Positions 1 to 62,590 of a DNA stretch of 64,000 nt are shown piece after piece. The stretch is from Dasypus novemcinctus (Eukaryota; Chordata; Mammalia; Cingulata; Dasypodidae). The notes beneath the pieces were generated by a model that did no database searches, was not told where the DNA came from, and was given only the letters and a program-made list of their open reading frames with translations. Position 1 is the stretch's first letter, and each line of letters opens with the position of its first letter. The position numbers and the translations under genes are program-made. The stretch spans positions 19,373,278 through 19,437,277 of the forward strand of contig NC_080689.1 of NCBI RefSeq assembly GCF_030445035.2. Direction: 5' to 3'.

Positions 1-645
1 TTTTCCTTTTATAGATAATGCTGTAATCAGCTTCTTTGTATCAAATTTCTTGTTGCATTTCCTATTATTTCACTAGGAAATAATACCCAGAGAAGGAATT
101 ATAAACCAGATAAAAATATATATATTTGAGGCATTTGGCTTCAGAGTCTGCTCTTACCTGCCTTTTGGAGGGCTTGCCAATCTTTCAGTCATGGTACATG
201 TAAAAAAATGAATATTTCTGTAACACCCTGGCGTAAATGGAAGAGGATACTCGAGCCTAGAGGTTACTTCTCCATGGACTATAACTTAGACATAAACAGG
301 TCCTCTCCTGACCCTTCTGAGAGCCAAGGGAATCAGTTGGTAGACCTGTAACCCATTCTCACACAAGTGTTAGGAAGCTCTGCATTATTGTGTAAAGAAC
401 CTTTAAAACTTCAAGTTCATAGTAATATGACATGTAAGTTCATTAATTCCTTTAGGTTAACTGTATTTTTCAGTTGAAATTGCTTTCAACTTAATATCTT
501 AATGGTGTAAAAGAGGAAAAAGTTCTGGATTTTTTTTCTTTTATATTCTACAGTCATGGCCAAACTTACTTTCAAAATTAAAGAGATCAAGTATTTCTGG
601 CGATTTTAAAATTTATGAATTACTTAATGTATTTTCTTTTTAAAG
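1..645 (+). other. SLC30A6: SLC30A6 intron (3' part)
   Basis: This AT-rich stretch lies upstream of the first recognisable exon and ends in a pyrimidine-rich tract followed by AG at 644-645. I see no coding similarity, RNA gene or clear repeat in it. It is intronic by position, because the exon at 646 needs one upstream base to complete its first codon. Confidence 0.7.
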
Positions 646-694
646 CTGCTAGTACGAGTTGGCTTCAAGAGCATGTTGCGGATCTTAGTCGAAG
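646..694 (+). CDS. SLC30A6: SLC30A6 (ZnT6) internal exon, TM5 region
   Basis: This 49-nt exon is bounded by AG at 644-645 and GTAAGG at 695. It starts in codon phase 1 and ends two bases into a codon. With one G from the previous exon it reads AASTSWLQEHVADLSR plus a split serine codon, which matches the entry to transmembrane helix 5 of ZnT6. ZnT6 is a cation-diffusion-facilitator protein of the Golgi/secretory pathway. It is regarded as the non-transporting subunit that pairs with ZnT5 to load zinc into secretory enzymes such as alkaline phosphatase. The phase fits the exon at 1460 exactly. Upstream exons lie outside the window. Confidence 0.93.
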
Positions 695-925
695 GTAAGG
701 TATTATGGAGTTTCATGATACGCATAATTTAAGAGGAATGCACAAGAAATCTCCCTATCATGGAAACTTAGATTATTCATAGCCAAAGTTTCTGCACAAA
801 TCACACAGATCAGATTCTTATTCTTACCTTAAAAAATTTTTGTAAATGATGATACAAAAGAGTTCTTTATTAGTAAGAAAGCTTTGCTCCAAACTCCTCT
901 TTGTTTTCTTTAAAAGGTTTATTAG

Positions 926-1335
926 GGAAGCGGATATGGATAGAGCATCCACCTACCATATAAGAGGTCCAAGGGTTTGATACCCAGGGCCTCCTGGTTC
1001 ATGTGGTAAGCTGGCCCACATGTAGTGCTGCTGCACGCAAGGAGTGCTGGCCCACGCAGGGAAGCCCCCATGTAAGGGTGTCCCCCCCTCCTGCGCAAGG
1101 AGTGGCCCCTACACAAGGAGAGCCGCCCCCCTCGAAACTGCAGCCTGCCCTGGAGTGGTGCCACACACACACAGAGCTGACGCAGCAAGATGACGCAACA
1201 AAAAGAGACACAGATCCCCAGTGCTGCCTGATGAGAATACAAGTGGACACAGAAGAACACACAGTGAATGGACACAAGAGAGCAGACAACGGGAGGGGGG
1301 GAGAGGGGAGGATAAATAAACTTAAAAAAAAAATT
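926..1335 (+). mobile_element. DAS-SINE, sense, in SLC30A6 intron
   Basis: A tRNA-like head (GGAAGCGGATATGGATAGAG, with a B-box-like GGTTTGATACCC) is followed by the GC-rich body typical of this family and an A-rich tail. Imperfect direct repeats flank it (AAAAGGTTTATTA upstream, AAAAGGTATATTA downstream). Open frames here are SINE sequence, not genes. Confidence 0.9.
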
Positions 1336-1459
1336 AAAAGGTATATTATATGATACTAAAATACAAGCCATCTCTTAAAAAGTTTTCAGTGGTATTACAT
1401 GAATTCTGCTAATGAATATTCTTTTTTGTATTTTTGTTTGCTTGTTTGTTTTTTCTTAG

Positions 1460-1579
1460 TTTGTGTGGAATTATTCCAGGACTTAGCAGTATCTTCCTTC
1501 CCCGAATGAATCCGTTTGTTTTGATTGACCTTGCTGGAGCATTTGCTCTTTGTATTACATACATGCTAATTGAAATTAA
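1460..1579 (+). CDS. SLC30A6: SLC30A6 (ZnT6) exon, TM5-TM6
   Basis: This 120-nt exon follows a polypyrimidine tract and AG at 1458-1459 and ends at GTAAGT at 1580. It completes the split serine codon from 646-694 and reads SLCGIIPGLSSIFLPRMN, then a hydrophobic segment ending in CITYMLIEI and a split asparagine. This covers the end of TM5, the luminal loop and the start of the next membrane region of ZnT6. The frame is open, with no disabling change. Confidence 0.95.
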
Positions 1580-3581
1580 GTAAGTATTATTCATTGCTGC
1601 CGAATGTGTTATTATTTCCTGGGACCCAACTTTTAAGGGCATCTGTGGGATGGGTAGGGGTCAAGCTATCCTAGTGTTTTTTGCTGATGACCTATGTCAG
1701 CTTTGTGAAGTCTTGTTGTCAAGTGTCTTCATTTGAAAAATTAAAGGGATTGAATTCAATAAGAATTTCTCATCATAATCTATAATACAGGAAAACTGTC
1801 TAAATTTCCTGCTGTTGACCTGATGAATGAAATAGAGATGAGAACAGTAAGAGAGAAATCTAAGCCATGGTTGCTATTGCTGAGAGAGAGGGAAGAGAGG
1901 TATTTGGTAGGAAGCAATTTTTTTTAAAAAATTTCTTTTAGAAAATAGTCCTTACAGTTGCTGTAACGTTAACATTTTATGACATGTGATTCTTTGGCTA
2001 AAATATTAGTATTTTACTAGAGTCTGTCCTTATTTTTATTATATTCTTCTGAGAGATCACATAATTATTTATTTTTATTTGTGACCTCTGTGATTCCCAA
2101 CTCTGTTTCCTGTCCACATCTCTATTGAATTTCAAAAAGGATAGCTTTTTTTTTTGGTCTGCTTCAACTGAACCTATTTTTCCCTATCCTCAAAACTGTT
2201 TTTCTTGTATTCCCCATCTCAGTAATTGATACTACCATCTATTCCAGTGTATTCTTAAGTTCCTGCTTCTCCTCCCTCATGACCCCTCCCCAAACCATTC
2301 TAACTGGTCACCAAGTCTTGTTTAGTCTTTCTTTGATGTTTGTTTGTTTGTTCCCTCTGTCCCATTTTCATTGCTGCTTCCCTAATGAGGCCTTTATCAT
2401 CATTTCCTTCGGCTACTAGAATAGTCTTCTGGTCAGTTCTCAAACACATCACTAGTAATCTCCTCTGTTGCTGCTAATGTGATCTTTACGTTGCAAGTCT
2501 GGACATAATATTCATAATCCTCCCCTTTAGATATTTAAAAAAACTAAAACTTGTTAGCACAGTCAGTCCTGTGAGATCAAGCTTCTAACAACTTTGCCAG
2601 TATAGCCTCCACTCCATCTATACAGGTTTGTAATTTCCTTGCTGCATCAGTGTTTGTTTTCTTGGTTTTTTGTTTTTGTTTTTCTTTGCATTAGGTTTTT
2701 CATGCCCATACTCCTTTACCTACATGGACTATCTTCCTCACATTATCTCGCTCATCTTTGAAGGGTCAGCTCAAATATCATGTCCTCTTTTCATCGTTAA
2801 CCTTTCTGGATTATCCCAGTAGGTTGGTCACTCACTCCTTTATGTATCTATGTACACTATAGAAACTTCTACTTTAGTATCCAGCGTGCCTCATTATGTT
2901 TTTTACATATGTATTGCCTGTTACACAGGAGCAGGGACTGTTTTATTCATGTTTCTTTTCCCAGCATGTGGGAGAAAAATACAAAAGAGTGTATGATCAG
3001 CTTGTACCATTGGCATTTTGTTCTTTCTTGTTAGAACTTCAACACAGTCTGAACTACTGGTAAGATGTTGCACTTCAACTACAAAATTGCTATAGCACAT
3101 CCCTGGAGTATCTTACCTTGTGACATTTCTGGGGGGAATTTTGAAAATTTTTAGTAGTGAATATTAGAAAGTTACTGATTTCAGAAAAATTGTTAGAATC
3201 ACTAATGAAACCCATTAGTCTCTCTGCATCAGAAAAGTTTTTATCTGTCACAGTGAAACAATTGAATATATTTTAAATCTTTCTAGTTGCCAAGGAGATT
3301 GAAAATTATGTGGTAGGGAAATACAGCTAACAGATTTTTTTTTCCCATCATCTCTCTTCACACTAATTACCATAATTAGTTATTTTTTGACCAAAGTTTG
3401 ACAGGAAAGGTTTCTAAAAACTATTTGTTTGATTTTGTTGTTTTGTTTTTCAGACACTCCTATTGCCAGTAGTAGCCAATTGTGATAAAATAGTCCTTTT
3501 ACTTTAGATAATTAATGTTCAGTAGATTTGAGTTTTAAGTGAGGCATACATTTAAGATTTATAATTGTTTTTTCCTTTTAG
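1580..3581 (+). other. SLC30A6: SLC30A6 intron
   Basis: This 2-kb intron has GTAAGT at the donor and TTTCCTTTTAG at the acceptor. Apart from the L2-like stretch annotated at 2690-3000, it holds only AT-rich unique-looking sequence. I see no exon-like or RNA-like structure in it. Confidence 0.85.
2690..3000 (-). repeat. L2 LINE fragment, antisense
   Basis: The stretch reads like the reverse complement of the L2 3' end: a run resembling the common 'ctcaaatatcatgtcctc...ccttt' pattern, then 'gagcagggactgttttattc' near the end. The order matches L2 copies found across mammals. The copy is strongly diverged and its limits are approximate. Confidence 0.5.
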
Positions 3582-3684
3582 TAATTATTTTGCTGTAGAC
3601 ACTGCCTCTGCCATAGCCATTGCTCTGATGACATTTGGCACTATGTATCCCATGAGTGTGTACAGTGGGAAAGTCTTACTCCAG
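3582..3684 (+). CDS. SLC30A6: SLC30A6 (ZnT6) exon, TM6
   Basis: This 103-nt exon lies between AG at 3580-3581 and GTAAAA at 3685. It completes the split asparagine codon and reads NYFAVDTASAIAIALMTFGT, then YPMSVYSGKVLLQ, ending on a whole codon. This is TM6 of ZnT6 and the start of the cytosolic C-terminal domain. The frame is intact and joins the exon at 4753 in phase 0. Confidence 0.95.
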
Positions 3685-4752
3685 GTAAAATTCTTCTTTT
3701 AAAGTACATGCTTAATATTAGCCATGTTCTTCACCAGATTGTGAAATTTTTAGCTACTACAGAGCCCTTTTAGAAATGAAGTCAAGCAGTAATCCTGAAA
3801 CTTATATTGTAAGAACCACATGACATTCAGATGGCCTATATAGTATGAAAAAATTTTCTTATACTTGTAATGTAAGAAAAAGTCATGTATTTAAAGCTCT
3901 TCATCTGTAATAATGTTTCGAGTGAAAGTAGTATTAATTTTTTTTTTAGATATTTATTTTTTCCCAATAAACATACTTTGGCTATTATATAGTCTGGTTG
4001 TGATTGTTTTCTTATTGCCTATCATCAAAAATTTATATTTTAAATTTTAAACTAAGTTTAAAATTACTACTCATACAAACAATAGGAACACCTACAAGAC
4101 AAGCACCTAGATAGAAAGGTAGTTTTCCCAGGGCTGGATGTGTATGTAAGCACTGTTCTTCATTCTTTTTTACCCTCACACCTTTCTTAAAACTTGGGAG
4201 CTGTAGAAGCACCTCCAGAAGCAGTAACAACAAAAAGTTGGAAAGTTTAGACCCTATATAAATTGTTACTTTTCTAACCATTTCTTGGGGATTTTTTGTT
4301 CATTGGTTGGTTCTTTAAGCTTTATTTGGTTCTCGAGATAGCAGTTTATTTGTAAGATTAAAAAAAAACTTGTCAGTGATATTGCAGGGACGGGATGTTA
4401 TATATCCTGCCATAACCCACAGAATGGACTGGGAGAGAGTGTAAACTACAACATAAACTATAATCCTTGCTGGGTAGCAGTGCTCCAAAATGTACTCATC
4501 AAAAGCAATGAATGTACCACACTAATGAAAGAAGTTGCAAAGTGGGAAGAGTGGGGAGGTGGGGAGTGGGGTATATGGGAACCTCTTTTATTTTTTAATA
4601 TAACATTTTATGTGATTTATGTACCTTTAAAAAAAAAGATTAAAAAATGTAGAGACAGGCATAAAACCCACTTATTTTTAGTTTCAGGACCACTGTTTCA
4701 AAAAAATTTTCTACCCAGATTATTCATATTTTATTTTAATTTTTTCCCCCAG
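3685..4752 (+). other. SLC30A6: SLC30A6 intron
   Basis: This 1.07-kb intron has a GTAAAA donor and a CCCCCAG acceptor at 4746-4752. Its 3' half contains the L1 3'-end fragment at 4330-4655. The rest is AT-rich and shows no features I can name. Confidence 0.85.
4330..4655 (+). mobile_element. 5'-truncated L1 3' UTR fragment, sense
   Basis: It includes 'atcctgccataacccac', the same motif that appears reversed at 21138-21155, followed by a G-rich run and an A-rich end near 4630. This is the layout of the armadillo-type L1 3' UTR tail. It is non-coding. Confidence 0.6.
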
Positions 4753-4800
4753 ACAACACCACCTCATGTTATTGGTCAGTTGGATAAACTTATCAGAGAG
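4753..4800 (+). CDS. SLC30A6: SLC30A6 (ZnT6) 48-nt exon, start of C-terminal domain
   Basis: This exon of 16 codons runs from after AG at 4751-4752 to the GTAAGA at 4801. It reads TTPPHVIGQLDKLIRE, the linker and first helix of the cytosolic domain of ZnT6. It is in phase 0 at both ends, so skipping it would keep the frame. The longer open frame that reads through it from 4480 to 4851 is not a gene. Confidence 0.95.
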
Positions 4801-5299
4801 GTAAGATGGAATGACAAAATCACTTTCACTAATTTATACTTAGGGAATTGAAAGGGTGGGTGCAAATAGTACTTTATTTAACCCTACCCAGAGTTTTATT
4901 TTAGGGGAGTTAAATGTTTTTTTTTATAATAATACAGTAGGATACATAACATAGTGATAAAATTGTGAGGAACTTCTCAGTTTGGAAGCAAAATTCACTT
5001 GAAATATAATGTGGACGGTAATGGTCTAAAGACCATCCTATCAGCTTTTTAAGTGCTGTGAATGTTGTGATTGTATATTCAAACCTAGGATTTTGACAAA
5101 GTCAAAAGCCACTTTTACATGTTGATTGCTTTACTAACATCCTGATCTAGAAATTTTCCTTCTATTATTATTGTTACTATTATTAAGTTTCAACCTGCCA
5201 ACAAATCAAGGAATATGATAATTGAATTGAACTTGGATGTGGAGAATATATTCAACTCCTGGCTATTGGTTTAACCAGGGCCACTTTTTTAGGTTATCT

Positions 5300-6090
5300 T
5301 TTCACTTAAAAAAAAATTTTTTTTTTGTTAGAGAAGTTGTAGGTTTACAGAAATATGCATAAAATACAGAATACCATATACTACCCTTTTTTTTTTAACA
5401 ACTTGCCGTAGCATAGTATATTTGCTATAATTCATGAAAGCACTTTTATAACTGTACTATAAACTATAGTCCATCATTTGCTCTAGGGTTCACTGTGTTG
5501 TACAGTCCTGTTTTTTCTTTTAATTTTTATTCTATTAACATATATACAACCTAACATTTCTTCTTTAACTGCATTTACATATATAATTCAGTACTGTTAA
5601 TTACATTCAATGTTGTGCTACCATCACCACCATCCATATTACCAAGCTTTGCAAGCAACCCAAATAGAAGTTCTGTACAATTAATGCCTTAATTCCCCAT
5701 TCCCTGTCCCCCCCACCCAGTCCCTAGTAATCTATATTCTAGATTCTAACTCTATGAGTTTACTTACTCTAATTATTTCATATCAGTGAGATCACACAAT
5801 ATTTTGTGTCTCACTTATTTCACTCAACATGTTGACTTCAAGGTTCAATCCATGTTGTCTCATGGATCAGAACTTCATTCCTTTTTAATGCTGAATAATA
5901 TTTAATATTCTGTTGTATGTATATAACACATTTTGTTTATCCATTCAATAGTTGATGGACATTTGGATTGCTTCCATCTTTTGTCAAGTGTGGATAATGT
6001 AGCTGTGAACATTGGTGTACAAATACCTGTCCAAGCCCATTTTCAGTTGTTTTGGTATATACCTAGCAGTGGGATTGCCAGATCACTTAA
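5300..6090 (-). mobile_element. L1 3'-end fragment, antisense, old
   Basis: It contains diverged forms of the usual antisense L1 3' sequence: 'tgaataatatttaatattctg', 'ccattcaatagttgatggac' and 'tacctagcagtgggattgcc'. These are reverse-complement ORF2 C-terminus and 3' UTR. No open frame survives. It lies in the 4801-6688 intron; the rest of that intron holds nothing I can name. Confidence 0.75.
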
Positions 6091-6688
6091 CTCTCTGAGG
6101 TACTGAACAAAGGCCCTTTACCCATAGGTCTGGCTGCTTGCCTCAGCTAATTAAGCCTGGCCCTTTATGTTTCTCCTGTGCTTGCTGTGCCAATGAGCCA
6201 TACTATATATCTGGCTTATTTAGAATTTCCTGTTGGCCCACATCCAAATAACATCCTATATTGCACAAAGATTTGTTTTAAGGGTATCCAGAGGATGAAA
6301 TGATTAAGAACATTTGTTTTCTTATAAAATAATTTGTGTATCAGGATAAAAATTTGATACACAAATGTCAGATATAAATATATGCCATGTCGATATATGA
6401 AAAGAACCATATAGTTGAACCAAGGGGCAGGGAGGGGTGAAGCGTGAGCAATCAGGACCTGCCTGATTCTAGAAGGACTGAAGTAAACACACTAGAAAAA
6501 CAAGGCTTACCGAACAAGTGGGAAGGGTATCTTGAGTGGTGTGGAACTTCTTTTGGCTTACCAGCATCCTTGAGCAGGGTTTTACCATGGCATTATCAGC
6601 CTTAGAGCTAGTCCATAATGTGACTGAACTATGTTGGAAATGTCAAATACAGATAATTCTGATAACCTATTTTTATATTTTTGATTAG

Positions 6689-6757
6689 GTATCTACCTTG
6701 GATGGAGTTTTGGAAGTCCGAAATGAGCATTTTTGGACTCTAGGTTTTGGATCTTTG
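6689..6757 (+). CDS. SLC30A6: SLC30A6 (ZnT6) 69-nt exon, C-terminal domain
   Basis: This exon of 23 codons follows ATTAG at 6684-6688 and ends at GTATGT at 6758. It reads VSTLDGVLEVRNEHFWTLGF plus GSL. This is the first beta strand and turn of the ferredoxin-like cytosolic domain that mediates dimer contacts in this transporter family. It is in phase 0 at both borders and fully open. Confidence 0.95.
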
Positions 6758-9069
6758 GTATGTTTCCGCATATTACTTTAGTTACAATTTAAAACATAAT
6801 TCTCAGTTTTTAAGTGCCATCTCTCTTGATAGCGTTTTCCAGGATGTGCAAGAATTGTAAATGTGGAAGCACATCTGATATGTCTGTTTAGGAGTGGGAA
6901 TCTCCCTGTGTTGAAAGGGAGCAGGGTGCATCTGGGAAAAAGAAAGACAGCCAGTGAGACTGCCATCCGTGGAGGAGAGCAGAGTCCAGGATGAGACTGG
7001 ACATGTTGGTGGGGGCTAGATCATGCTGGACCTTGTAGGGGAGAAAAAACAACCATCTTAAAACGGAGTGTTCCAGAAAATAACAAAACAAAATTTTAAA
7101 AAGTATTTCTCTGATTTTTAAGCCTTTGATTCCCATTTCTGTTTTTGTGTTCAGTACAGTCAAAATGCAGATGACTCAGTGACCTAACTGAAATTGAGGG
7201 ATTTTTTTTTCTTTCAAACTGCAGTTGTTGATCTTAATACTGGACTATCCTGATAAGACAAACCCATAGTTTAGTGTAATTCCTAAATACGAGAAGTATT
7301 ACAAAGGAAAGGATGCCATTATTTTCATTTTAGTTGCAGTTGTAATTTTGGAAATTGCACTAAATATGTTAAAAGGTTTTAATAACACAACTTGCTTCAG
7401 CATAAAATTTGCTGCTCTAATCCACTTTGGACTTCATTACCAGAAGAACTTTATTTTTGTTTGGTTTTATTCCTAAGTGAGGAATAATAAGAAAAATACA
7501 GAGAAGCACTCAGAAAAAAAAATTGCCATTATAATCTCACCATCTAGAGAAAATGTCGATATTTTGGTTATTTATTTTTGTACACATATTCTTAGAAAAT
7601 GATCTCTGTTTCATAACTAACTCTTTTTGCTTAATAATATATCAGAAATGGTTTCCCATGTCATTAAACACTCTTCAACCGTATTTTCTAAAAAGCAAAT
7701 AGGGTTTCATTTTTCTAACATAACACAAGTTTCAGAGGTGGGTAGTCCAGGGATGTCATCCACCGTGGAGTCTCTAGCTCCAGGCTCTCATGTGCGCTGA
7801 GTGGAAAGAGAACTGCTTTACCTCCACTGTCCTCCACTCTTTACATTAATGTCTCCCTGGTAACTTTGGATGTCTAAAGTTTATTCTCTAGTGAATTCAT
7901 CAAGAAGGACCCTTGGGAACAGTATTCTCTAAATTACTGAATGTTGAAAACAGTTGTGGGCTTTATGTTTTAATACCAGTTTGGCTTGGTATAAAATCCT
8001 TAGCACACATTTTGTTCCCTTGAGTTTCTTTGATATATTAACCCATTCACCTCTGGCATAAAACATTGCTGTGATAAAGTCTGACGACAATCTGATTTTT
8101 AAATTATTTTTCTCAAATCCCGTTATCTCTTCATGTCCTTTTGATTTTTAAAGATTACCTTCTTGTGTTTTATTTCTACAGTTTTGCTTATTTGCTTTTG
8201 TATTTCTTCCAGCTTAGTCTTCATTTCTGAAGTGAATTTTTAAAATTTATAATTTTTTTGCTGTCATCTCCTTACATTCTTATTTCATGTCTTTTAGCTT
8301 GTTTTGAAAAAGAACAAGTTTTCATATGTTTTGCAAGTGTATCTGTTACATATTTTCTTTTTTTTCCATATAACAACTCTGTGTGGAATTTGGCCTCAGT
8401 CCTTTTCTATTCATTTTCATGTGAAATTAGTTTTCTTGAACTTTAAAAATAAGCAGTTCTTTAGTGGAATGTATCTAAATTCATGACTCTAGAGCTAGCT
8501 CTTTTGATGATTTTGTGAAGTGAAAGCTTTTTCTTTTTCCTGGCTGTAATCCTCTCCCCTAGTTTTATCTGAACCTTCTCTGTCCTTTGTATCTACTAAG
8601 CTGCTTAAAAATTCTCTTCCCAGTTGTTCCTTCTCAGTGTCGGCCTTTGCCTGGTTACTTTTGAGAGCACATCAGACTCGGACTCTTTCAGCCCTTCAAA
8701 CCTTATTGCATACCCAGTGTAATTACTCATTATTGAAATGTTCAAAACTCTTCCCAGTTTCAGCTGCTATTCTCAACTCGGCTGTACTTGCTTTCCATAA
8801 GTACACGTTAGTTGCTTGGGGATGCTCAGGTCAGTCACATGCCTTGGCGCTTGCTTCTGCTTCCTCCTGCACAGATGTCCGATGCCTTGCAGGTCTTAAC
8901 CTTGCTTATATTTGGTGGTCTGTGGGACTGTCATGTTACCTAGTTTTTATAGATGTTGTCCAAAGGTTTATTGTGCTGTCCGAGTTCCTCTGTTTTTATG
9001 GGGGTGTTTGGGTGATTAAAAAACTGCCACCACAGCTGCCATCTGCTAGGGATCCCATTTTAATTTTTA

Positions 9070-9840
9070 ATGACTGCAGAGTTTTACGTTAAATGACTAT
9101 AGCATAATTTATTTAATCAGTTCCCTGGTGAACATTTAGCATTGTTGCCAATTATTTTTATAGAAATAGGGTGGAGATGAACATTTCTTATAATAATCTT
9201 TGCACATATCTGTGGTTATTTCCTTAAGATTAATTTTCAGATGTAGTTTTTATGAGGCAAAGATATCTATGTGGTTTTTTTTTAAGATTTATTTTTTATT
9301 TCTCTCCCCTTCCCCGCCCCCCCCTCCCATTGTCTGCTCTCTATGTCCATTCACTGTGTGTTCTTCTGTGTCTGCTTGTATTCTTGTCAGCGGCACCGGG
9401 AATCTTTGTCTCTTTTTTGTTGCATCATCTTGCAGAGTCAGTTCTCTGTGTGTTTGGCGCCACTCCTGGGCAGGGCTGCACTTTTTTCGTGCAGGGCGAC
9501 TCTCCTTGTAGGGCACACTCCTTGTGCGTGGGGCTCCCCTATGTGGGGGACACCCCTGTGTGGCACGGCACTCCTTGGGCCCATCACCACTGCGCATGGG
9601 CTAGCTCACCACGTGGGTCAGGAGGCCCTGGGTTTGAACACTGGACCTCCCATGTGATAGGCGGATGCTCTATCAGTTGAGCCAAATCTGCTTCCCTGAT
9701 ACCTATGTATTTTTGTGGTTTTTGATGCAAATTGCCCTCCCAAATGGTTATTCCCCCAGTTTATATTCTCCCAGTAGTGAAGTTCATTGTAGCCATTATT
9801 TTAATTGTACTACTAATATTCATAAATTAGTAGAAAAGTG
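9070..9840 (-). mobile_element. Old antisense L1 fragment split by a SINE
   Basis: Both sides of the SINE at 9275-9697 resemble the antisense 3' region of ancient L1: 'ataatttatttaatcagt' on the left and 'caaattgccctcccaaatgg' on the right. The two parts join naturally if the SINE is removed. Confidence 0.6.
9275..9697 (-). mobile_element. DAS-SINE, antisense
   Basis: It runs from a T-rich tail complement through the GC-rich body to the tRNA-like head, which reads on the + strand as 'ctatcagttgagccaaatct'. Imperfect target duplications are 'agatatctatgtgg' on the left and 'tgatacctatgt' on the right. The several frames of 80-150 codons here are SINE artefacts. Confidence 0.9.
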
Positions 9841-10582
9841 TTTATTAAACTGGGAACTTCATAACCCAAAGAATGCAATCATCTTAACTAATCTGACCTT
9901 GACCATCTAGAAATTGACTTATGTAGTACCTAGTAAGACCCAGAAATCAATAAAAGAAGATTTTGAGCTCTCAAAAATAGGTGTCACAAAAGCCATAGAA
10001 ATAAAAAAGTATATATTTTTTTAAAATGCCATTTTTAGCACATGTACCATGATTATAGGAGACTGTTGAAGCTCATACTCAGAAAGTTTTCATTTAATTA
10101 CTTTGATTTCCAAATCAAACTGAAATAGTATACAGAATCTTACAGTTTTGTATACTGACAACTCTGAACTTAGAGTGGCAGATAAATGTGAGTAATCAAA
10201 GACAACTTGAATTTTAGTCATATCTTGTCTTCCCTAAATGTACAGAACTGGAAGTCAGATTGAAGCAATATCAGTATTTTCTCTATCCCATGATTGACAT
10301 TAGCTCTCTTAGGTACTGATCTGTATTTAGCCTTCCAAATTGTAGGTTCAGGTACGTTGTAATAAAATCAACTATTTGCCTAATTTAATTGCCATTTATG
10401 CATTGTTTTAAAAATCTGAGTTTAGAAATAAACATGAACCATCTGCTATTTTGCTTATTTTTATTTGCCCTACTGTGTATTTTTGTTTTTATGATACAAA
10501 TAGTACCAATCGTTAGACAAAGTAGAACTTAAGAGATAAAGAGAATATGAATTCTTAATTATACCATCAAGAAGAGATAAGT

Positions 10583-10957
10583 GGAAAACGGACTTTGGCC
10601 TAGTGGTTAGGGCGTCCGTCTACCATATGGGAGGTCCGCGGTTCAAACCCCCGGCCTCCTTGACCCGTGTGGAGCTGGCCATGCGCAGTGCTGATGCGCG
10701 CAAGGAGTGCCCTGCCACGCAAGGGTGTCCCCCGCGTGGGGGAGCCCCACGCGCAAGGAGTGCGCCCGTGAGGAAAGCCGCCCAGCGCGAAAAGAAAGAG
10801 CAGCCTGCCCAGGAATGGCGCCGCCCACACTTCCCGTGCCGCTGACGACAACAGAAGCGGACAAAGCAACAAGACGCAGCAAATAGACACCAAGAACAGA
10901 CAACCAGGGGAGGGGGGGGAATTAAATAAATAAATAAATCTTTAAAAAAAAAAAAAA
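10583..10957 (+). mobile_element. DAS-SINE, sense, exact 12-bp TSD
   Basis: The head has A-box-like TGGCCTAGTGG and B-box-like GGTTCAAACCC, then the CpG-rich body, (AAAT)n and an A run. The duplication GAAGAGATAAGT is exact at 10571-10582 and 10960-10971, which suggests a fairly young insertion. It is nearly the same sequence as the copy at 48602. Confidence 0.95.
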
Positions 10958-11199
10958 AAGAAGAGATAAGTGCTGTCATTCTTAGTGTTTTTCTGTGTAT
11001 ATATGTGTATTTTTTTTTTAAGCAAAACAGGATCATTCCTGTTCCTACTATTTTATTATCTACTTTAAAAGAATAAAATATGGTAAACATTTTTTTCAGA
11101 GTTAGTAAACATACTTTTAACCATCATCATAAAGCCTAGTCATCTCTTATCCTTCTAGTAAGCCAGGCTAGAAGCCTTCAGATCATCTTTTTTTTTTTT

Positions 11200-11760
11200 T
11201 TAATAGCAATTTTATTGAGATAAGTCACATACCGTAAAGTTTACATTCAATGGCTTTTGGTATAATCACAGAGTTGTGCATTCATTACTGGAATCAATTT
11301 TAGATCATTTTCATTACTTCAGAACTAAAAATCCCCTCCCTCTTAGCAGTCACCTCTCAATCCCTCTATCCTTCCCCAGCTGTACATAACCACTAATCTG
11401 ATTTCATCTCTGTAAATTAATTTGTATTTACATTTTACCTATTTTTTTGTGTCTGGCTTCTTTAGCTTAGCATAATATTTAAAAATTTTTTAATTGGTGA
11501 AAAAATATTTATGTATTACTATTCACTACAGTCCATCATTTGCTTTAGGTGTGTTTTTGCCCATATAAAACCCTATTGATAACATTTTGTATTGCTATCT
11601 GTTTTAATTCATGCAAGAACATTCTTATATTTGTACTATTGACCACATTCATCCACAACAGAGTTTACTGTGCTATATACAGTACCATGTTTCATCCTTC
11701 CACTCTGCTGCTGAAATATCATGAATCCATCTGTACCCCTCTGACCCCACTGTTATTATC
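11200..11760 (-). mobile_element. Old L1 3' fragment, antisense
   Basis: It matches the familiar reversed L1 3' sequence: 'attttattgagataagtcac', 'tcacagagttgtgcattcat' and 'gtgtctggcttctttagctt'. It is strongly diverged and has no coding capacity. Confidence 0.7.
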
Positions 11761-12019
11761 CTAGCTCAGCCCTTCTCATTTCTAACCTGGACCGTTGCAT
11801 TCATTTCCTATCCAATTACCAGTCATCTTGCCTATGGTTTTTCTGGAATCTGATTATTTTACTTCTGTTAACTGCTGCTGTTAAATCAGAAGTCCTTATT
11901 CTAATATTTGTGTCCTACTGCTAGCCTCTCTTTTAGGCTCTCCTTTCTCTCTCCTTTCTCCCTCTCCTTCCTTTCCTCCTTCTACCCTCTGAAATGTTTG
12001 TATTTTTTAATCTTTTATT

Positions 12020-12340
12020 GTTATTATTCTTTCCCAGACATCCCATGCATTTTAATTGTTGTTCCCTCAGTTTGGAATGCATCTCCACTCTTTGAAATTC
12101 TGCTTAACCATCAACCCTAGATCAAATGCTATCCTTTTTTGAAGTCGTCCCCAATTGGAATACCTGTTAACTTTTTCTGCCCTTCCATTGCATTTTTCAC
12201 ATACTTCATTATTTATCCTGCCTTGTTATAACATGCCTCTTTTCCTCCTTCACTAATTGAAATCTCTTCTAATTTTTATATTTATTTAGAGTGCTTAGCA
12301 CTTAGAAGGTGCTAATGAATGTCTATTTTTTAAATCACAT
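12020..12340 (-). repeat. L2 LINE fragment, antisense
   Basis: It shows the reversed L2 3' pattern: 'ttccctcagtttggaatgca', 'agatcaaatgctatcctttt' and 'gtgcttagcacttagaaggt'. It ends about 200 bp before the last SLC30A6 exon. Confidence 0.55.
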
Positions 12341-12547
12341 TTTATTCAAAGTTATTTCATGAACTGTTTACAATGGTAATCATTAGTAAGTAGTCTTTAA
12401 GAGATATCAAGGCCTTAAACTTTATATTATTTTAAAGAAAATAACCAGGTACTATTAAAATCAAATCATAAATTAAACGTTCATTTCTAATGAAATTTTC
12501 AGTAGTACAGTTCTAAGCACTCTTTCTTATGATTTTACCCCTTTTAG

Positions 12548-13048
12548 GCTGGATCAGTGCATGTAAGAATTCGACGAGATGCAAATGAACAAATGGTTCT
12601 TGCTCATGTGACCAACAGGCTGTATACTCTGGTGTCTACTCTGACTGTTCAGATTTTTAAGGATGATTGGATTAGACCTTCTTTACTGTCTGGGCCTGTT
12701 GCAGCCAGTGTCCTAAACTTTTCAGATCATCAAGTAATCCCAATGCCTCCTTTAAAGGGTACTGATGATTTGAACCCCATCACGTCGACTCCTGCTAAAC
12801 TTAGTAGTCCACCTCCAGAATTTTCATTTAACACCCCTGGAAAAAATGTGAACCCAGTTATTCTTCTGAACACACAAACTAGACCTTATGGTTTGGGTCT
12901 TAATCATGGACACTCACCTTATAGCAGCATGCTTAATCAAGGACTAGGAGTCCTAGGAATTGGAGCCACCCAAGGATTCAGGACTGGTTTTACAAATATG
13001 CCAAGTAGATATGGAACTAACAATAGAATTGGACAACCAAGACCATAA
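12548..13048 (+). CDS. SLC30A6: SLC30A6 (ZnT6) last coding exon and stop
   Basis: This exon follows CCCCTTTTAG and encodes 166 residues plus TAA at 13046-13048. It starts AGSVHVRIRRDANEQMVLAH and ends SRYGTNNRIGQPRP, the known ZnT6 C-terminus. The first 50 residues complete the ferredoxin-like cytosolic domain. The rest is the long serine/proline/asparagine-rich tail particular to ZnT6, with SSPPPEFSFNTPGKNVNPV and several glycine-rich turns. It joins the previous exon in phase 0. There is no frameshift or premature stop, so the gene looks functional. Confidence 0.97.
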   Translation, partial: AGSVHVRIRRDANEQMVLAHVTNRLYTLVSTLTVQIFKDDWIRPSLLSGPVAASVLNFSDHQVIPMPPLKGTDDLNPITSTPAKLSSPPPEFSFNTPGKNVNPVILLNTQTRPYGLGLNHGHSPYSSMLNQGLGVLGIGATQGFRTGFTNMPSRYGTNNRIGQPRP

Positions 13049-16760: not shown

Positions 16761-17056
16761 TTAAGTAGTTACTAACTTAAAATCACCCTTAGCACTGAGA
16801 TCATCATCATCAAATTGCCACCCAATAAATCTAGCTTCTTGCAAAGAAATTAACTTGGATAACACATGGCTAAGGTTTCTGACTCATGCTTCAATAGTGC
16901 TGATGTTAAACAAAAAAACAAAAACAAAAAAACAACCCTAATTGCTTAGGGTTCTCAAATACACCCATGAAGGCAAACCACCCATGATAGCTCACACGAT
17001 TTCCTGCCCAATCCAACTGCTGAAAGATTTTCAGAATTTCTTTTTAAAAATGTACC
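16761..17056 (-). pseudogene. NLRC4: NLRC4 last (C-terminal LRR) exon, disrupted
   Basis: On the - strand the stretch follows a good acceptor (TTCTTTACCCAG, ending at 17057). It reads [14 protein letters not shown] and then [16 protein letters not shown], closely like the last leucine-rich repeats of NLRC4. After a damaged middle it reads [20 protein letters not shown] and ends FKLVTT with TAA at 16763-16761, the position of the family's normal end. Damage: a shift of about -2 nt just after the acceptor; a T-rich simple repeat (about 16905-16935) replacing coding sequence; and TGA at a leucine codon shortly after it. The stop lies about 3.7 kb from the SLC30A6 stop in the opposite orientation, as expected for the NLRC4 locus. 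Identity is by residue pattern from memory. Confidence 0.85.
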
Positions 17057-42028: not shown

Positions 42029-43275
42029 GAAGCACATACACATCCCAAAAGAGAAGGGAAAATGGGAAGTAAGAATGTTTGAGAAAATAATGGCTGAAAA
42101 ACAACTGACACTGACTCTAAAAGAAATAGAAGATCTCAAAGACCAATTACTAGTAAAGGCATAGAATCAATTATTTTTAAAAAAAACTTCCCAAAAGGAA
42201 AGCCTAGGATTACATGACTCAAAAGTGAATTCTACCAAACATTCCCAAGAAGAATTAATACCAATCCTTAAACTCTTCCAAAAATTGAACAGAAGGGAAC
42301 ATTCTTAATTCATTCAATGAGGCCAACATCACCATAGTGCCAAAGCCATATAAACATACTAAATGAACATAAAATTACAGACAAATTTCTTTTATGAATA
42401 CAGATGCAAAAATCCTCAACAAAATACTTGCAAATCAAATCCAACAGCACATCAAAAGAATTATACACCATGATCAAATGGGCTATATCCCAGGTATGCA
42501 AGGATGGTTAACGTAAGAAAAGTAATGTAACACACTATGTTAAAAAAAATGATCATCTCAAGTGACACAGAAAAGGTATTTGACAAAATCTAGTCTCCTT
42601 TCTTGATAAAACACTTTGAAAAATAGCATAGAAGAGTTCTCAAAATGATAAAGGGTGTATGTGAAAACTGCACAGCTAACATACTCAATGGTGAAAGGCT
42701 GAAAGCTTTCCCTGTAAGATTAGGAGCAAGACATGTAGCCAGAGCCTATAGCAAGAAAAATAAATAAAAGGCATACAAATTGGAAAGGAAGAATTAAGAC
42801 TATCACTATTTACACAACATGATCCTATATGTAGAAAAGCTCAAAGAACCTACAACAAAACTACTAGAGCTAATAAATGAATTCAGCGAAGTGATGGGAT
42901 ACAAGATCAACGTGCAGGGAAGCAGATGTGGCTCAACTAATTGAGCGTCCACCCACCATATAGAAGGTCCAGGGTTTGAATGCAGGGCTCCCTGGCCCAT
43001 GTGGTGAGCTTGCCTACGTGCGGTGTTGTTGCACGCAAGGAGTGCCATGCCACACAGGGGTGTTCCCTGTGTAAGGGAGCCCCATGCACAAGGAGTGTGC
43101 CCTGCAAGGGGAGCTGCCCCACACAAAAAAAACGCAGCCTTCCCAGGTGTGGCACCATACACGGAGAACTGACACAGCAAGATGACACAACAAAAAGAGA
43201 CACAGGTTCCCAGTGCTGCCAAGAATGTAAGCAGACAAATAACACACAGTGAATGAACACAAGAGAGCACACACA

Positions 43276-44092
43276 GGGAAGCGGACTTGGCCTAGTGGTT
43301 AGGGCGTCCATCTACCACATGGGAGGTCCGCAGTTCAAACCCTGGACCTCCTTGACCCATGTGCAGTTGGCCCGTGCATAGTGCTGATGTGCGCAAGGAG
43401 TGCCCTGCCACACAGGGGTGTCCCCCGTGTAGGGGAGCTCCACGCACAAGGAGTATGCCCCGTAAGGAGTATGCCCCGCCCAGCACAAAAGAAAGTACAG
43501 CCTGCCCAAGAATAGTGCCGCCCACAAGGAGAGCTGACACAACAAGATGACGCAACAAAAAGAAACACAGATTCCTGTGCCACTGACAACAACAGAGGCA
43601 GACAAAGAAGACACAGCAAATAGACACAAAGAACAGACAGGGAAACGGACTTTGGCCCAGTGGTTAGGGCGTCCGTCTACCACATGGGAGGTCCGCGGTT
43701 CAAGCCCCAGGCCTCCTTGACCCGTGTGGAGCTGGCCCATGCGCAGTGCTGATGCGCGCAAAGAGTGCCGTGCCACACAGGGGTGTCCCCCACGTAGGGG
43801 AGCCCCACGCACAAGGAGTGCGCCCATAAGGAGAGCCGCCCAGCGCGGAGGGAGCAGCCTGCCCAGGAATGGTGCCGCTCACACTTCCTGTGCCGCTGAC
43901 GACAACAGAAGCGGACAAAGAAACGACGCAGCAAAAAGACACAGAGAACAGACAACCAGGGGAGGGGAGGGGAATTAAATTTTAAAAATAAATAAATAAA
44001 TAAATCTTAAAAAAAAAAAAAAAAGAACAGACAACCAGGGTGGGGGAAGGGGAGAGAAATAAATAAATAAATCTTTAAAAAAAAGAGAGAGA
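43276..44092 (+). mobile_element. DAS-SINE, middle of the nest
   Basis: It inserted into the outer SINE near the 'agagagcacaca' motif, which recurs at 44093-44105. It is itself broken at 43640 and resumes at 44022. Confidence 0.92.
43641..44021 (+). mobile_element. DAS-SINE, innermost of the nest
   Basis: This CpG-rich copy starts GGAAACGGACTTTGGCCCAG. AAAGAACAGACA is exact at 43628-43639 and 44022-44033. It is the youngest of the three by nesting. Confidence 0.94.
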
Positions 44093-58718: not shown

Positions 58719-59690
58719 CACAACATTCATTCTGCAGCCAATGGATCAAGGAGTCATTTTGACTTTCAGGTCTTATTATTTAAGAAATACATTTCATAAG
58801 TCTATAGTTGCCACAGACCGATTCCTCTGATGACTCGGTAAATATATTGCAAACCTTCCAGAAAGGATTCACCATTGTAGATGCCATTAAGCACATTTGT
58901 GATTCACGAGAGGAGGTCAAAATATGAACATTAACATAAAATAATGTAGCTTGGAAGAGGTTGATTTCAATCCTCATTATGACTTTGAGGGACTCAAGAC
59001 TTCAGTGGAGGTAGTACCTGCAGATATGGTGGAAACAGCAAGAGAACTAGCATTAGAAGTGGAGCTTGAAGATGTGAATGAATTGCCACAATCTCTTAAT
59101 AAAACTTGAAAGGATGAGGAATTGCTTCTTATGGGTAAGCAAAGACAGTAGTTTCTTGAGATGGAAACTTACCCTAGTGATGATGTTGTGAACATTGAAA
59201 TGACAACAAAGGATTTAGAATATTACATAAACTTGGTTGATAAAGCAGTGGCAGGATTTGAGAGGACTGACTCTAAGTTTGAAATCAGTTCTATTGTGTG
59301 TAAAATGCTATCAAACAGCATTACATGCTACAGAGAAATCTTTCATGAATGAAGAGTCAATCAATGCAGCAAACTTCATGGTTGCCTTATTTTAAGAAAT
59401 TGCCACAGCCACCCCAAACTTTAGCACCACCACATGATCAGCAACAGTCATCAACATTGAGGCAACACCCTTCACCAGGAAAAATATTTTGACTTACAAA
59501 GTCTCAGATGATGGTTAGCACTTTTTTAGCAATAAGGTATTTTTAAATATTAAGGTATGTACATTGTTTCTTTAGATATAATGCAATTGCACACTTAATA
59601 GACTATAATATAGTGTAAAAGTAATTTTTATATGCACTGAGAATCCAAAAAATTCGTGGAATGATTATTTGTATAAAAGATTCTAGATTT
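58719..59690 (+). mobile_element. Tigger1-type DNA transposon, right part
   Basis: It resumes exactly where the left part stopped, at the 'QPMDQG' region of the transposase. Readable pieces include SRYYLRNTF-like sequence, [20 protein letters not shown] and [14 protein letters not shown], then the 3' region 'gcacttaatagactataata'. Frames are broken, so it is a fossil. The right terminal repeat is not clear. Confidence 0.88.
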
Positions 59691-60461
59691 TTGGAATACC
59701 TAAATCACTCATCTGCAAGGTAACAAGCAAGGCAGAGTAGGATGAGAAATCACTTGTAAATGAAAACTAACCCTGGTTGCTACAGGTAAGTAGAACAGGG
59801 GTCCTGCTGCCCAAAGCTTCGCATGACATGGCAGCCCCTGCTCTTGGATCAGAGCTGGTCAGTCACAAATAGGGCAGAGATTCACTTTGAGTGTTATTTG
59901 ATTTGGGGAAGTCTCCCTTTTACCAGGAAACATTGCCACCGTGTGTCTGAGTCTAAAGTCTGAAATTCCTTCAATGTTACTATTTTTAAAAATGCATATA
60001 CTTGGGGTAGGGGTGGGACTGGGTATGTTCTGCATTTTCCCAGATGAGAATTTAGTAACAGAATTAGCCACTAGCTCCTGCAGGTGATTGGTTTACAGGT
60101 TGAATTTCCTCCAAGACTTGGGGTTGAGAGAATGTGCCACCTCGCAGTAAAGTAAAAGGTATCAGGTGGAGATGAAGGTGCTGACAAGGGAGAAGCCTTT
60201 CTGAAGACAAACTTGGTCTACCTTACTGCTTTTCAATAAGACTGTATCATTCCATGTCTGGGAAACTTCCCTAGGGCCTCCCAACCTGGCAGCCTTCCCC
60301 GAGATGGACCTCTCTCCCCTGCCCTCCTACCTCTTTCTAAGTCCTGACACTGGCTAGAAACTTAGAAAACTTCAAACAAAACTTACATGACATCTATCTA
60401 ATTTTTCCACAGTAGCCAGCCAGGCTTGATTATAGCTTAAACTAGTGATGTTTACTGTGCC
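59691..60461 (-). other. NLRC4-pseudogene intron remnant
   Basis: This stretch lies between the Tigger1 and the NLRC4 large exon (3' side on the - strand). It looks unique, has balanced base composition and shows no repeat I recognise. It is probably the original intron following the large exon. Confidence 0.5.
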
Positions 60462-61780
60462 TCCCAGCCGTTGAGTCTGTAGGTTGTGAATACTCAAGGT
60501 TTTCAGGTTTGTCATTGATGTGATGTACTTCTCATCTTCTATGGTAGGTGGACTGGCTTCCACCATGAGGCAATGAAGGTTCTTAGAGGTGCCAAGGATC
60601 CAACTGAGGCTTCCAGTCATGCCAACATATCTTAATCTATAATCTGAGGCTTGTGGCAGGGCTGAATATCTTTCCCATCTATTTGATATCTTGCTTACTC
60701 AACTTCTTGAAATTCTGCAGTGTTTTGAATTCCTGCTTCCAGTTGAAAGCAGGAATTGGGCCTGCTTCCATGGCCCTGATGGGAATGTAGGTTTATGAGG
60801 ACTTTTCTAGGTGGATCCTGCTTGTGTCTTCTGCAGCCTTGTGCCATAAAGTCTTGGCTTCCCTGTGGAAGTTCAATTTAATGAAGTCCAGAGCACTTGC
60901 ATAGTTAGGCAAGTTTTCAAAAAGTCAAATAAGTAATCAGGAAGGTTCTCTGAGTTGATATATATGATTCTACCATGAAAGAAATCTTCACATTCTTGAC
61001 TCAGGGCTGATCTGGATATACACTTATGGAATAAATTGATGCCACATTCTGCAAAGGAATTTATGTTTATGGCTTTCAGGATTTCTTGCTCAGTGGTTTT
61101 TTTCACATTTTGCAGAGACACCTGCCTTCAGAAAGTCCTCATGGAAAGCTCAAGAAAGATGCCATGCTGAAAGTCCACTATAAGGTGCTTCATAAAGATC
61201 CTGGTGGCCTCAGCAGATGACCCACACATGCACAGGAGCAGGTTACTATATATGAATGTGATGTCTGAAATGGAAACCATATTCTGCAAATAACCATTCC
61301 CCTTGGTTATATCTTCTGGCTCACAAGGCATCAACAAACTGGTAAGTCTGTGTCCTGCTATGTACTCCTGGAATAATTTATGAAAGAATTTATATTCCTG
61401 TACCTTTGAGCTATATATTTACAAAGGAGTTCAGTCATCAGTAGGACATCCTTGTTTGTGCTGGAGATATTCTCAGGTTTGAATCAAACCTGCAGGAGAA
61501 CACAGAATCCAGAGTTAAATCCCCACAGAGCTCCAGGCTCTGAGTGAAGTATCTCACATCTACACCTCTGTGCTTAGACTTGTTTTTATGTATCATCAGA
61601 TCATAGAAAGTATGAAACAGCCTTGTTTGCAGAGTGGACTCACTTTTCCCCATCTGGATTGCACAAGTAATGACCACGAAGAAAGGGGTCTTCATCAGAC
61701 TCAAACACATGGATTTCTTAATCTGGAGCAACAAGACTTCAGTGAGCTCCTTTAACGGCACTAAAGAATGCCATCTAAAG
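60462..61780 (-). pseudogene. NLRC4: NLRC4 large exon, 3' part (WHD/HD2 to LRR start), disrupted
   Basis: The - strand reads in order: [120 protein letters not shown] and NLKTLSIHNLQTQRLGG. This is NLRC4 from the winged-helix/HD2 region to the LRR start. Frameshifts: about -1 near 61470, -4 near 61395, -1 near 60935 (a lost T in a T run) and -2 near 60625. In-frame stops: 61130-61128 (a Trp codon turned TGA), 60795-60793, 60681-60679 and 60639-60637. No clean GT donor follows LGG. The P-loop half of the exon is missing: SINE and L1 sequence begin at about 61783. Confidence 0.92.
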
Positions 61781-61782
61781 AG

Positions 61783-61879
61783 AAGACAAGCAGACACAGA
61801 AAAACACACAGCGAATGGACTCAGAGAGCCGACAACAAGGGGAGAGTGGAGAAATAAATAAGTAAAACTTTTAAAAAAA
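61783..61879 (+). mobile_element. 5'-truncated DAS-SINE fragment, sense
   Basis: Only the 3' third of the SINE is present ('acacacagcgaatggactca', then 'gagaaataaataagtaaaac' and an A run). It joins the NLRC4 pseudo-exon on one side and L1 on the other. Confidence 0.88.
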
Positions 61880-62590
61880 ACAAAACACATTAGAAGTATA
61901 CAAGAGCAGACTTGAAATCCTAGAAGAAAGAATAAGTGAGGTAAAAGACAGAACAGCTGAAATCAAAGAGAAAAGATGCAAAAAATTGAGCAGTGGCTCA
62001 GGGAATTGAATGATAAAAATGAAGTGCAGGGAAGCAGACTTGGCCCAATGGATAGGGCATCCACCTATCACATGGGAGGTCCACAGTTCAAACCCCGGGC
62101 CTCCTTGACCTGTGTGGAGCTGGCCCATGTGCAGTGCTGATGTGCACAAGGAGTGCCATGCCACGTAGGGTTGTCCCCTGCAGAGTGGATCCCCATGTGC
62201 AGGGAGTACACCCTGAAAGGAGAGCCGCCCAGCACGAAAGAAAGTGCAGCCTGCCAAGAATGGCGCCGTACACATGGAGAGCTGACACAGCAAGAAGATG
62301 CAACAAAAAGAAACAGATTCCCAGTGCCACTGATAAGGATAGAAGTGGTCACAGAAGAACACACAGCGAATGGACACAGAGAGCAGACAACTGGGGGGTA
62401 GGAAGGGGAGATAAATAAATAAATAATAAATCTTTTAAAAAAATAAAGTGCAAGAACATATATATCATGGGAGTTTCAGAAGGAGAAGAGAATTGGAAAG
62501 GGGCAAAAAGAATATTTGGGGAAATAATGGCTGAAAATTTCCCATCTCTCACAAAAGAAATAAATTTACATGTCCAAGAAACACAGCATA
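61880..62590 (+). mobile_element. L1 ORF1 fragment, sense, split by SINE
   Basis: It shows ORF1 coiled-coil sequence ('gaaatcctagaagaaagaat', 'agcagtggctcagggaattg'), then after the SINE 'ggagtttcagaaggagaaga' and 'gaaataatggctgaaaattt'. Frames are broken. Confidence 0.85.
62028..62442 (+). mobile_element. DAS-SINE in L1 ORF1, sense
   Basis: The head TTGGCCCAATGGATAGGGCA and GTTCAAACCCC is followed by the body and (AAAT)n tail. It is flanked by AATGAAGTGCA and AATAAAGTGCA. Confidence 0.94.

Follow-up and report, generated by a model that had tools for sequence, protein, structure and literature searches.

Ligand-bound NAIP seeds a wheel of NLRC4 molecules, whose CARDs recruit caspase-1. Loss of this pair of genes has been described in several mammals. 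Pangolins have lost both NLRC4 and NAIP, along with NOD2 and TLR5, and have kept the genes flanking NLRC4 (text of PMC8560141). In dogs and other caniforms, NLRC4 is a pseudogene, with inactivating mutations at its own locus, and NAIP is absent (text of PMC8560141 and PMC8411117). Pigs lack functional NLRC4 and NAIP, as cited in the text of PMC8560141. The initial annotation of the DNA studied here likewise stated that other mammals are reported to have lost the pathway. A survey covering 17 genomes of afrotherians and xenarthrans reports NLRC4 loss in Paenungulata, that is, in a related superorder; xenarthran NLRC4 loss is not named in its text passages (PMC11014510). A full-length NLRC4 is listed for the Amazonian manatee (P0016; 1021 amino acids, with CARD and NACHT), which fits badly with the reported loss in Paenungulata.

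A different cytosolic alarm is already known to be missing from armadillos. According to the text of a 2025 preprint, CGAS and STING1 became pseudogenes 45-70 million years ago, in the ancestor of armadillos; among mammals this loss is paralleled only by pangolins, and both genes are intact in sloths and anteaters (PMC12132585). The main text of that preprint has no mention of NLRC4, NAIP, inflammasome or TLR5. In the literature covered, a partial set judged by titles, openings of abstracts and selected passages, we found no description of armadillos lacking NLRC4 or NAIP.

We analysed a 64,000-nucleotide stretch of Dasypus novemcinctus DNA (the window). Very probably, NLRC4 is here a pseudogene that evolves without constraint in its original location, the partner gene NAIP is also broken, and the cytosolic NAIP-NLRC4 inflammasome is likely gone. 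The armadillo is thus likely to add an independent lineage to the known losses. As in pangolins, NLRC4 and NAIP have both been lost and the genes flanking NLRC4 are kept. Pangolin NLRC4 is entirely absent, whereas remnants of NLRC4 and NAIP remain in the armadillo (text of PMC8560141). The features shared with caniforms are inactivating mutation of NLRC4 at its own locus and the loss of NAIP (text of PMC8560141 and PMC8411117). The armadillo is an independent lineage, with most of the NLRC4 coding sequence missing. The pig has lost both genes, as has the armadillo, and again the lineage is independent (cited in the text of PMC8560141).

The NLRC4 remnants lie between SLC30A6 and YIPF4 and are tail-to-tail with SLC30A6; this is the syntenic locus (Table 1). 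When the window is joined to the next 120 kb, YIPF4 exons are found on the + strand from C28:19522832. The gap between SLC30A6 and YIPF4 is 136.5 kb and contains no N; two runs of N occur past the start of YIPF4. Repeats are common in this interval, about 53% of which has at least two other copies in the 184 kb so joined. A tandem array occupies 43023-43841 (365-base unit, 2.3 copies, 80% matches) and a high-copy repeat, with ~40 other copies within 184 kb, occupies 62000-62440. Short frames at 58780-59395 resemble, by eye, a fossil Tigger-type DNA transposon, and match no Pfam family above its cut-off.

The large-exon remnant of NLRC4 covers the end of NACHT, the winged helix, HD2 and the start of the LRR. 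Human NLRC4, used as a query that is 100% identical over its full length to a database entry, was matched by tblastn in the window as residues 312-411, 408-445 and 438-753, all on the - strand between 61761 and 60459. When two open pieces of the remnant were joined by X, the solved human and mouse NLRC4 were matched at E 3e-65 and 1.8e-62, respectively. The next match was to NAIP, a relative, at only E 0.025. Lesions were counted in a frameshift-aware alignment, with two-toed sloth NLRC4 (P0044) as the reference. In this alignment, 315 of 428 codons are identical, and the remnant has four frameshifts and four in-frame stops.

Table 1. Features of the NLRC4 locus (window coordinates) and of the NAIP locus (contig C2).
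Feature	Position	Strand	Evidence or remarks
SLC30A6 exons (aa 152-461), 3' neighbour of NLRC4	603..13045	+	6 matches, stops in none
Remnant of last NLRC4 coding exons (human aa about 931-1023)	16767..17056	-	tblastn, frameshift-aware alignment, profiles
NLRC4 large-exon remnant (sloth aa 312-753)	60459..61761	-	profile, tblastn, frameshift-aware alignment
Frameshift, net -2 nt, aa 698	60624	-	alignment vs sloth NLRC4
In-frame stop TAG, aa 693	60637..60639	-	alignment vs sloth NLRC4
In-frame stop TAG, aa 679	60679..60681	-	alignment vs sloth NLRC4
In-frame stop TAA, aa 641	60793..60795	-	alignment vs sloth NLRC4
Frameshift, net -1 nt, aa 598	60922	-	alignment vs sloth NLRC4
In-frame stop TGA, aa 529	61128..61130	-	alignment vs sloth NLRC4; consistent with ORF end
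Frameshift, net -1 nt, aa 438	61395	-	alignment vs sloth NLRC4
Frameshift, net -1 nt, aa 407	61484	-	alignment vs sloth NLRC4; position good to a few bases
Truncated high-copy repeat, abuts 5' break of NLRC4 exon remnant	61768..61885		copy counts
NAIP aa 4-199 (two matches)	C2:71574669-71575246	+	3 stops in matches
NAIP aa 1147-1199, LRR piece	C2:71582256-71582414	+	open
NAIP aa 1273-1358, weak match	C2:71604541-71604792	+	4 stops, E 0.001

The initial annotation had placed an NLRC4 pseudogene at its syntenic locus, tail-to-tail with SLC30A6, and had described a - strand large-exon remnant with at least four frameshifts and four stops. Both statements hold: YIPF4 lies on the other side, and the alignment to sloth NLRC4, which had been proposed at the time, gives the same count. 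The interval then given, 60462..61780, is correct as far as 61761, where homology to NLRC4 ends; its final ~19 bases are part of a truncated repeat. Up to position 61765 the DNA has no other copies, whereas from 61770 there are at least 4, rising to 21, within 184 kb. By eye, the repeated element is SINE-like. The end of NLRC4 homology at 61761, together with a much-repeated element from ~61768, suggests a repeat-associated deletion of the 5' part of the gene. A 5' part lying past the repeats at 61768 was also considered and rejected: in the next 120 kb, only YIPF4 was matched among NLRC4, SLC30A6 and YIPF4.

A second remnant, absent from the initial annotation, derives from the last coding exons. 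Residues 931-972 and 970-1023 of human NLRC4 were matched by tblastn at 17049-16767. Profile matches in this remnant scored 48.9 and 40.2 bits. Compared with golden mole NLRC4, 59 of 93 residues are identical and there are two frameshifts (17035 and 16929) and one stop (16886). The two remnants together thus carry six frameshifts and five stops. They are 43 kb apart, on the same strand, and keep the gene order. Hence, the NLRC4 remnant is not a retrocopy.

The remaining exons were sought with profiles built from 45 NLRC4 proteins. Divided into nine pieces, these were compared with the SLC30A6-YIPF4 interval and with its reversed sequence. Only pieces 312-753 and 931-1024 were recovered, their best stretches scoring 248.7 and 48.9 bits. 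None of the other seven scored higher than 5.0 bits (best E 1.6), and the reversed control reached 6.6 bits. For pieces 89-200 and 866-930 alone among these, the best match exceeded its own reversed control, by less than 3 bits (5.0 versus 2.3 and 4.6 versus 2.0 bits; E 1.6 and 2.1). Both matches were on the wrong strand. Equivalent tblastn searches of the locus with the missing pieces gave a best E of 0.15. Here, four of six best matches exceeded the reversed query, by 1-2.4 bits; three of these were on the wrong strand and one was inside the known large exon. Thus, residues 1-311 and 754-930 of NLRC4 have no significant match in the locus by tblastn or profiles. In sloth NLRC4 the CARD spans residues 2-87 and NACHT residues 164-315, so neither domain has left a trace distinguishable from chance. 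The same is true of the middle LRR exons: neither these nor the CARD and NACHT exons left a significant trace in the 136 kb, free of N, that separate SLC30A6 from YIPF4. The CARD and NACHT P-loop part of a working NLRC4 had no significant match in this 136 kb locus or elsewhere in the assembly. Taken together, NLRC4 here is a decayed unitary (non-processed) pseudogene, with lesions and with exons that have no significant match. The loss extends beyond that first described, with a second remnant bearing lesions and with missing exons.

To assess constraint, the remnant was placed in a maximum likelihood tree with the NLRC4 proteins of 15 placentals and of a turtle. It pairs with sloth (support 99), on a branch of 0.307 compared with 0.041 for sloth. 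Identity to sloth NLRC4 is 315/424 (74%) for the remnant and 77.7-86.7% for the other 14 placentals. At sites invariant in the 15 placentals, the remnant has changed at 47 of 202 (23%). Conversely, when each of the 15 placentals was left out in turn, only 0.5-5.0% of invariant sites differed. Change in the remnant was nearly equal at invariant sites (47/202) and other sites (62/222); for human versus sloth NLRC4, the figures are 5/216 and 71/226. TLR5 from the same genome was used as a control. In this case 9 of 355 invariant sites differ, compared with 0.3-6.1% in 15 placentals. TLR5 itself has a long branch as well (0.219 versus 0.070 for sloth), indicating a fast lineage, and part of the long NLRC4 branch arises because the lineage is fast even for intact TLR5. 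In the TLR5 tree the armadillo protein groups with sloth and Tamandua (support 97); within Xenarthra it groups with Tamandua at only 53. By themselves, the NLRC4 and TLR5 trees place the genome no more closely than in a xenarthran lineage separate from the sloth and anteater compared. Invariant sites are spared in TLR5 and not in NLRC4, which shows no sign of constraint at the protein level. In simulations without constraint, 23% change was reached at ~0.13 substitutions per site, and 4.6-5.5 stops were expected per 428 codons, compared with the four observed.

These data bear on whether the remnant yields a short useful product, as truncated protein or as regulatory RNA. In favour of such a product, the large exon is still recognisable, at 74% identity to sloth. 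However, invariant sites have changed as often as others, the longest open coding stretches are interrupted by eight lesions, the CARD and P-loop part was not found, and Rfam gave no match in the window at the gathering threshold. Hence, we regard a short product as highly improbable. It is scarcely credible that the lesions are mistakes made in sequencing or assembling an intact NLRC4, even though the evidence base for the loss is a single assembly. Errors of this kind would have to account for eight lesions in 1.3 kb, three more in the last exons, and the absence of a significant trace of the CARD, NACHT and middle LRR exons from an N-free interval. Change at 23% of invariant sites is also unlike base errors. 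Moreover, SLC30A6 matches on the same contig are free of stops, TLR5 is open over 858 amino acids, and NAIP is broken independently.

With a neutral rate of 2-2.5e-9 per site per year, decay of NLRC4 would be, very roughly, ~45-65 million years old, a figure too rough to rely on. The loss would be tens of millions of years old and possibly dates to the armadillo stem.

A second NLRC4 was sought across the whole 3.61 Gb assembly. Sloth NLRC4 (P0044) gave eight matches, with 14 of 14 candidates scored. Four are at the window locus; the other four, at E 2.5e-4 or worse, are in exons of NOD2 and other NLRs. Because the P0044 isoform has a different C-terminus, the last-exon remnant is not expected among these matches. 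In an independent search, the Pfam NACHT model gave 23 matches in 21 places, with 49 of 49 candidates scored. None of the 21 places is NLRC4-like or NAIP-like when compared with the sloth proteins (best 44% over 50 amino acids). The NACHT search did recover NLRP3 and NOD2; the NOD2 exon matches a PDB entry named 'Uncharacterized protein', which we take to be rabbit NOD2. Further NACHT translations, judged by eye, are presumably those of NOD1, NLRC3, NLRC5, CIITA, NLRX1, NLRP1, NLRP6 and NLRP12. Thus, neither the protein search nor the NACHT model search found another NLRC4 copy in the 3.6 Gb assembly.

Sloth has both NLRC4 (P0044) and NAIP (P0150), and we compared the latter with the assembly. 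At least 22 matches were obtained, the best 34 of 41 candidates having been scored. Four are clustered on contig C2, on the + strand and in gene order (Table 1); the other 18 matches listed are elsewhere in the genome and align to query residues 110-359, in the BIR part. GTF2H2, presumably the NAIP neighbour expected from human gene order, gave 10 matches, seven without stops, at C2:71463206-71499582, on the same strand and 75 kb upstream of the NAIP pieces. In a frameshift-aware alignment, the first coding exon of NAIP has one stop and two frameshifts, and 118 of 181 residues are identical to sloth. Only 7 kb separates NAIP residue 199 from residue 1147. The three BIRs and the NACHT of a working NAIP were not recovered at the C2 locus, and a NAIP-like NACHT is absent among the NACHT matches of the assembly. 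The LRR piece (51 codons) is open, with 42 of 51 residues identical to sloth; the loss of NAIP may therefore be more recent than that of NLRC4.

A working NLRC4 or NAIP could lie elsewhere in the genome or in unassembled sequence, given that an assembly of 546 contigs may be incomplete and that only the best candidates were scored (for NAIP, 34 of 41). We consider this very unlikely. Two independent searches of the whole assembly, one with NLRC4 protein and one with a NACHT model that does recover NLRP3, NOD2 and others, found no such copy, and the syntenic copies of NLRC4 and NAIP are both decayed. With both genes broken, the NAIP-NLRC4 inflammasome is likely lost. The initial annotation had judged this inflammasome to be lost or impaired, had named an intact NLRC4 elsewhere as the finding that would overturn its view, and had advised looking for matching decay of NAIP. 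No such copy was found across the assembly, NAIP at its C2 locus has a stop, frameshifts and no NACHT, and the judgement appears sound for a pair of genes with lesions and missing exons.

Since NAIP and NLRC4 signal together, either gene would escape constraint once its partner was lost. In the armadillo, loss of one partner may have released the other in this way; both would then have decayed through point mutations, deletions and inserted repeats, probably at an early stage of the armadillo branch. Whether the loss was tolerated or favoured by selection, for example by less inflammation of gut or macrophages or by pathogen escape, is a question of cause, and selection is compatible with the loss described above. 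Loss of the same pair in pangolins and caniforms (text of PMC8560141), and of CGAS-STING1 in armadillos as in pangolins (text of PMC12132585), would fit with selection. However, sequence does not separate these causes, and repeated loss fits a relaxed need too. Selection is possible as the cause, but we think it somewhat less likely than not.

Other sensors in this genome differ from the broken pair. TLR5, which senses flagellin at the cell surface, has an open frame over 858 amino acids (genome search, best 53 of 127 candidates scored), and the NACHT exons of NLRP3 and NOD2 are open. A loss of TLR5 had been suspected because no Dasypus sequence was among the best 120 of 1045 TLR5 proteins. 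The open frame rejects this, so absence from such best-match listings is no evidence of loss. A caspase-1-like cluster is located on C42 near 10.90-11.00 Mb. Its catalytic exons are open (10949985-10954325), and a match to the CARD exon (10961353-10961640) has one TGA inside. From these frames, TLR5, NLRP3 and caspase-1 are predicted to be still working. Given the established roles of these genes, the animal is likely to be selectively blind to flagellin and to parts of type III secretion systems inside the cell. Pangolins have lost NOD2 and TLR5 too, whereas in the armadillo TLR5 and the NOD2 NACHT exon are open (text of PMC8560141).

With NLRC4 and NAIP, as with CGAS and STING1, the armadillo lineage would have lost the whole pathway of a cytosolic alarm; CGAS-STING1 is a DNA alarm and NAIP-NLRC4 a bacterial-protein alarm (text of PMC12132585). 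We think it reasonably probable that NAIP-NLRC4 was dismantled in the common armadillo ancestor, about when CGAS-STING1 went. Armadillos would then be the second armoured insect-eating lineage, after pangolins, without both cytosolic alarms, and unlike pangolins would have kept TLR5 and NOD2. An animal that naturally lacks NAIP-NLRC4, and in which TLR5 and the NACHT exon of NLRP3 are open, would be a natural knockout for the cytosolic alarm that detects flagellin and type III secretion. Alongside the published loss of CGAS-STING1, convergence between armadillo and pangolin becomes testable. Results from armadillo macrophages should not be read as if the NAIP-NLRC4 inflammasome were present. 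Armadillos are classic animal hosts of leprosy bacilli. Mycobacterium leprae is not known to have flagella or a type III secretion system. Any link to leprosy is therefore weak, and the bearing of the loss on this disease is doubtful.

Other decayed sequences were seen in the assembly. On C29, open NLRP-like exons near 81.0-83.7 Mb lie beside several NACHT fragments in decay, with stops inside four of the weak matches, a sign of turnover in an NLRP cluster. Two long single-stretch matches to caspase-1-like sequence, at C30:60497959-60498660 and C30:60612574-60613268, contain several stops and are perhaps retrocopies.
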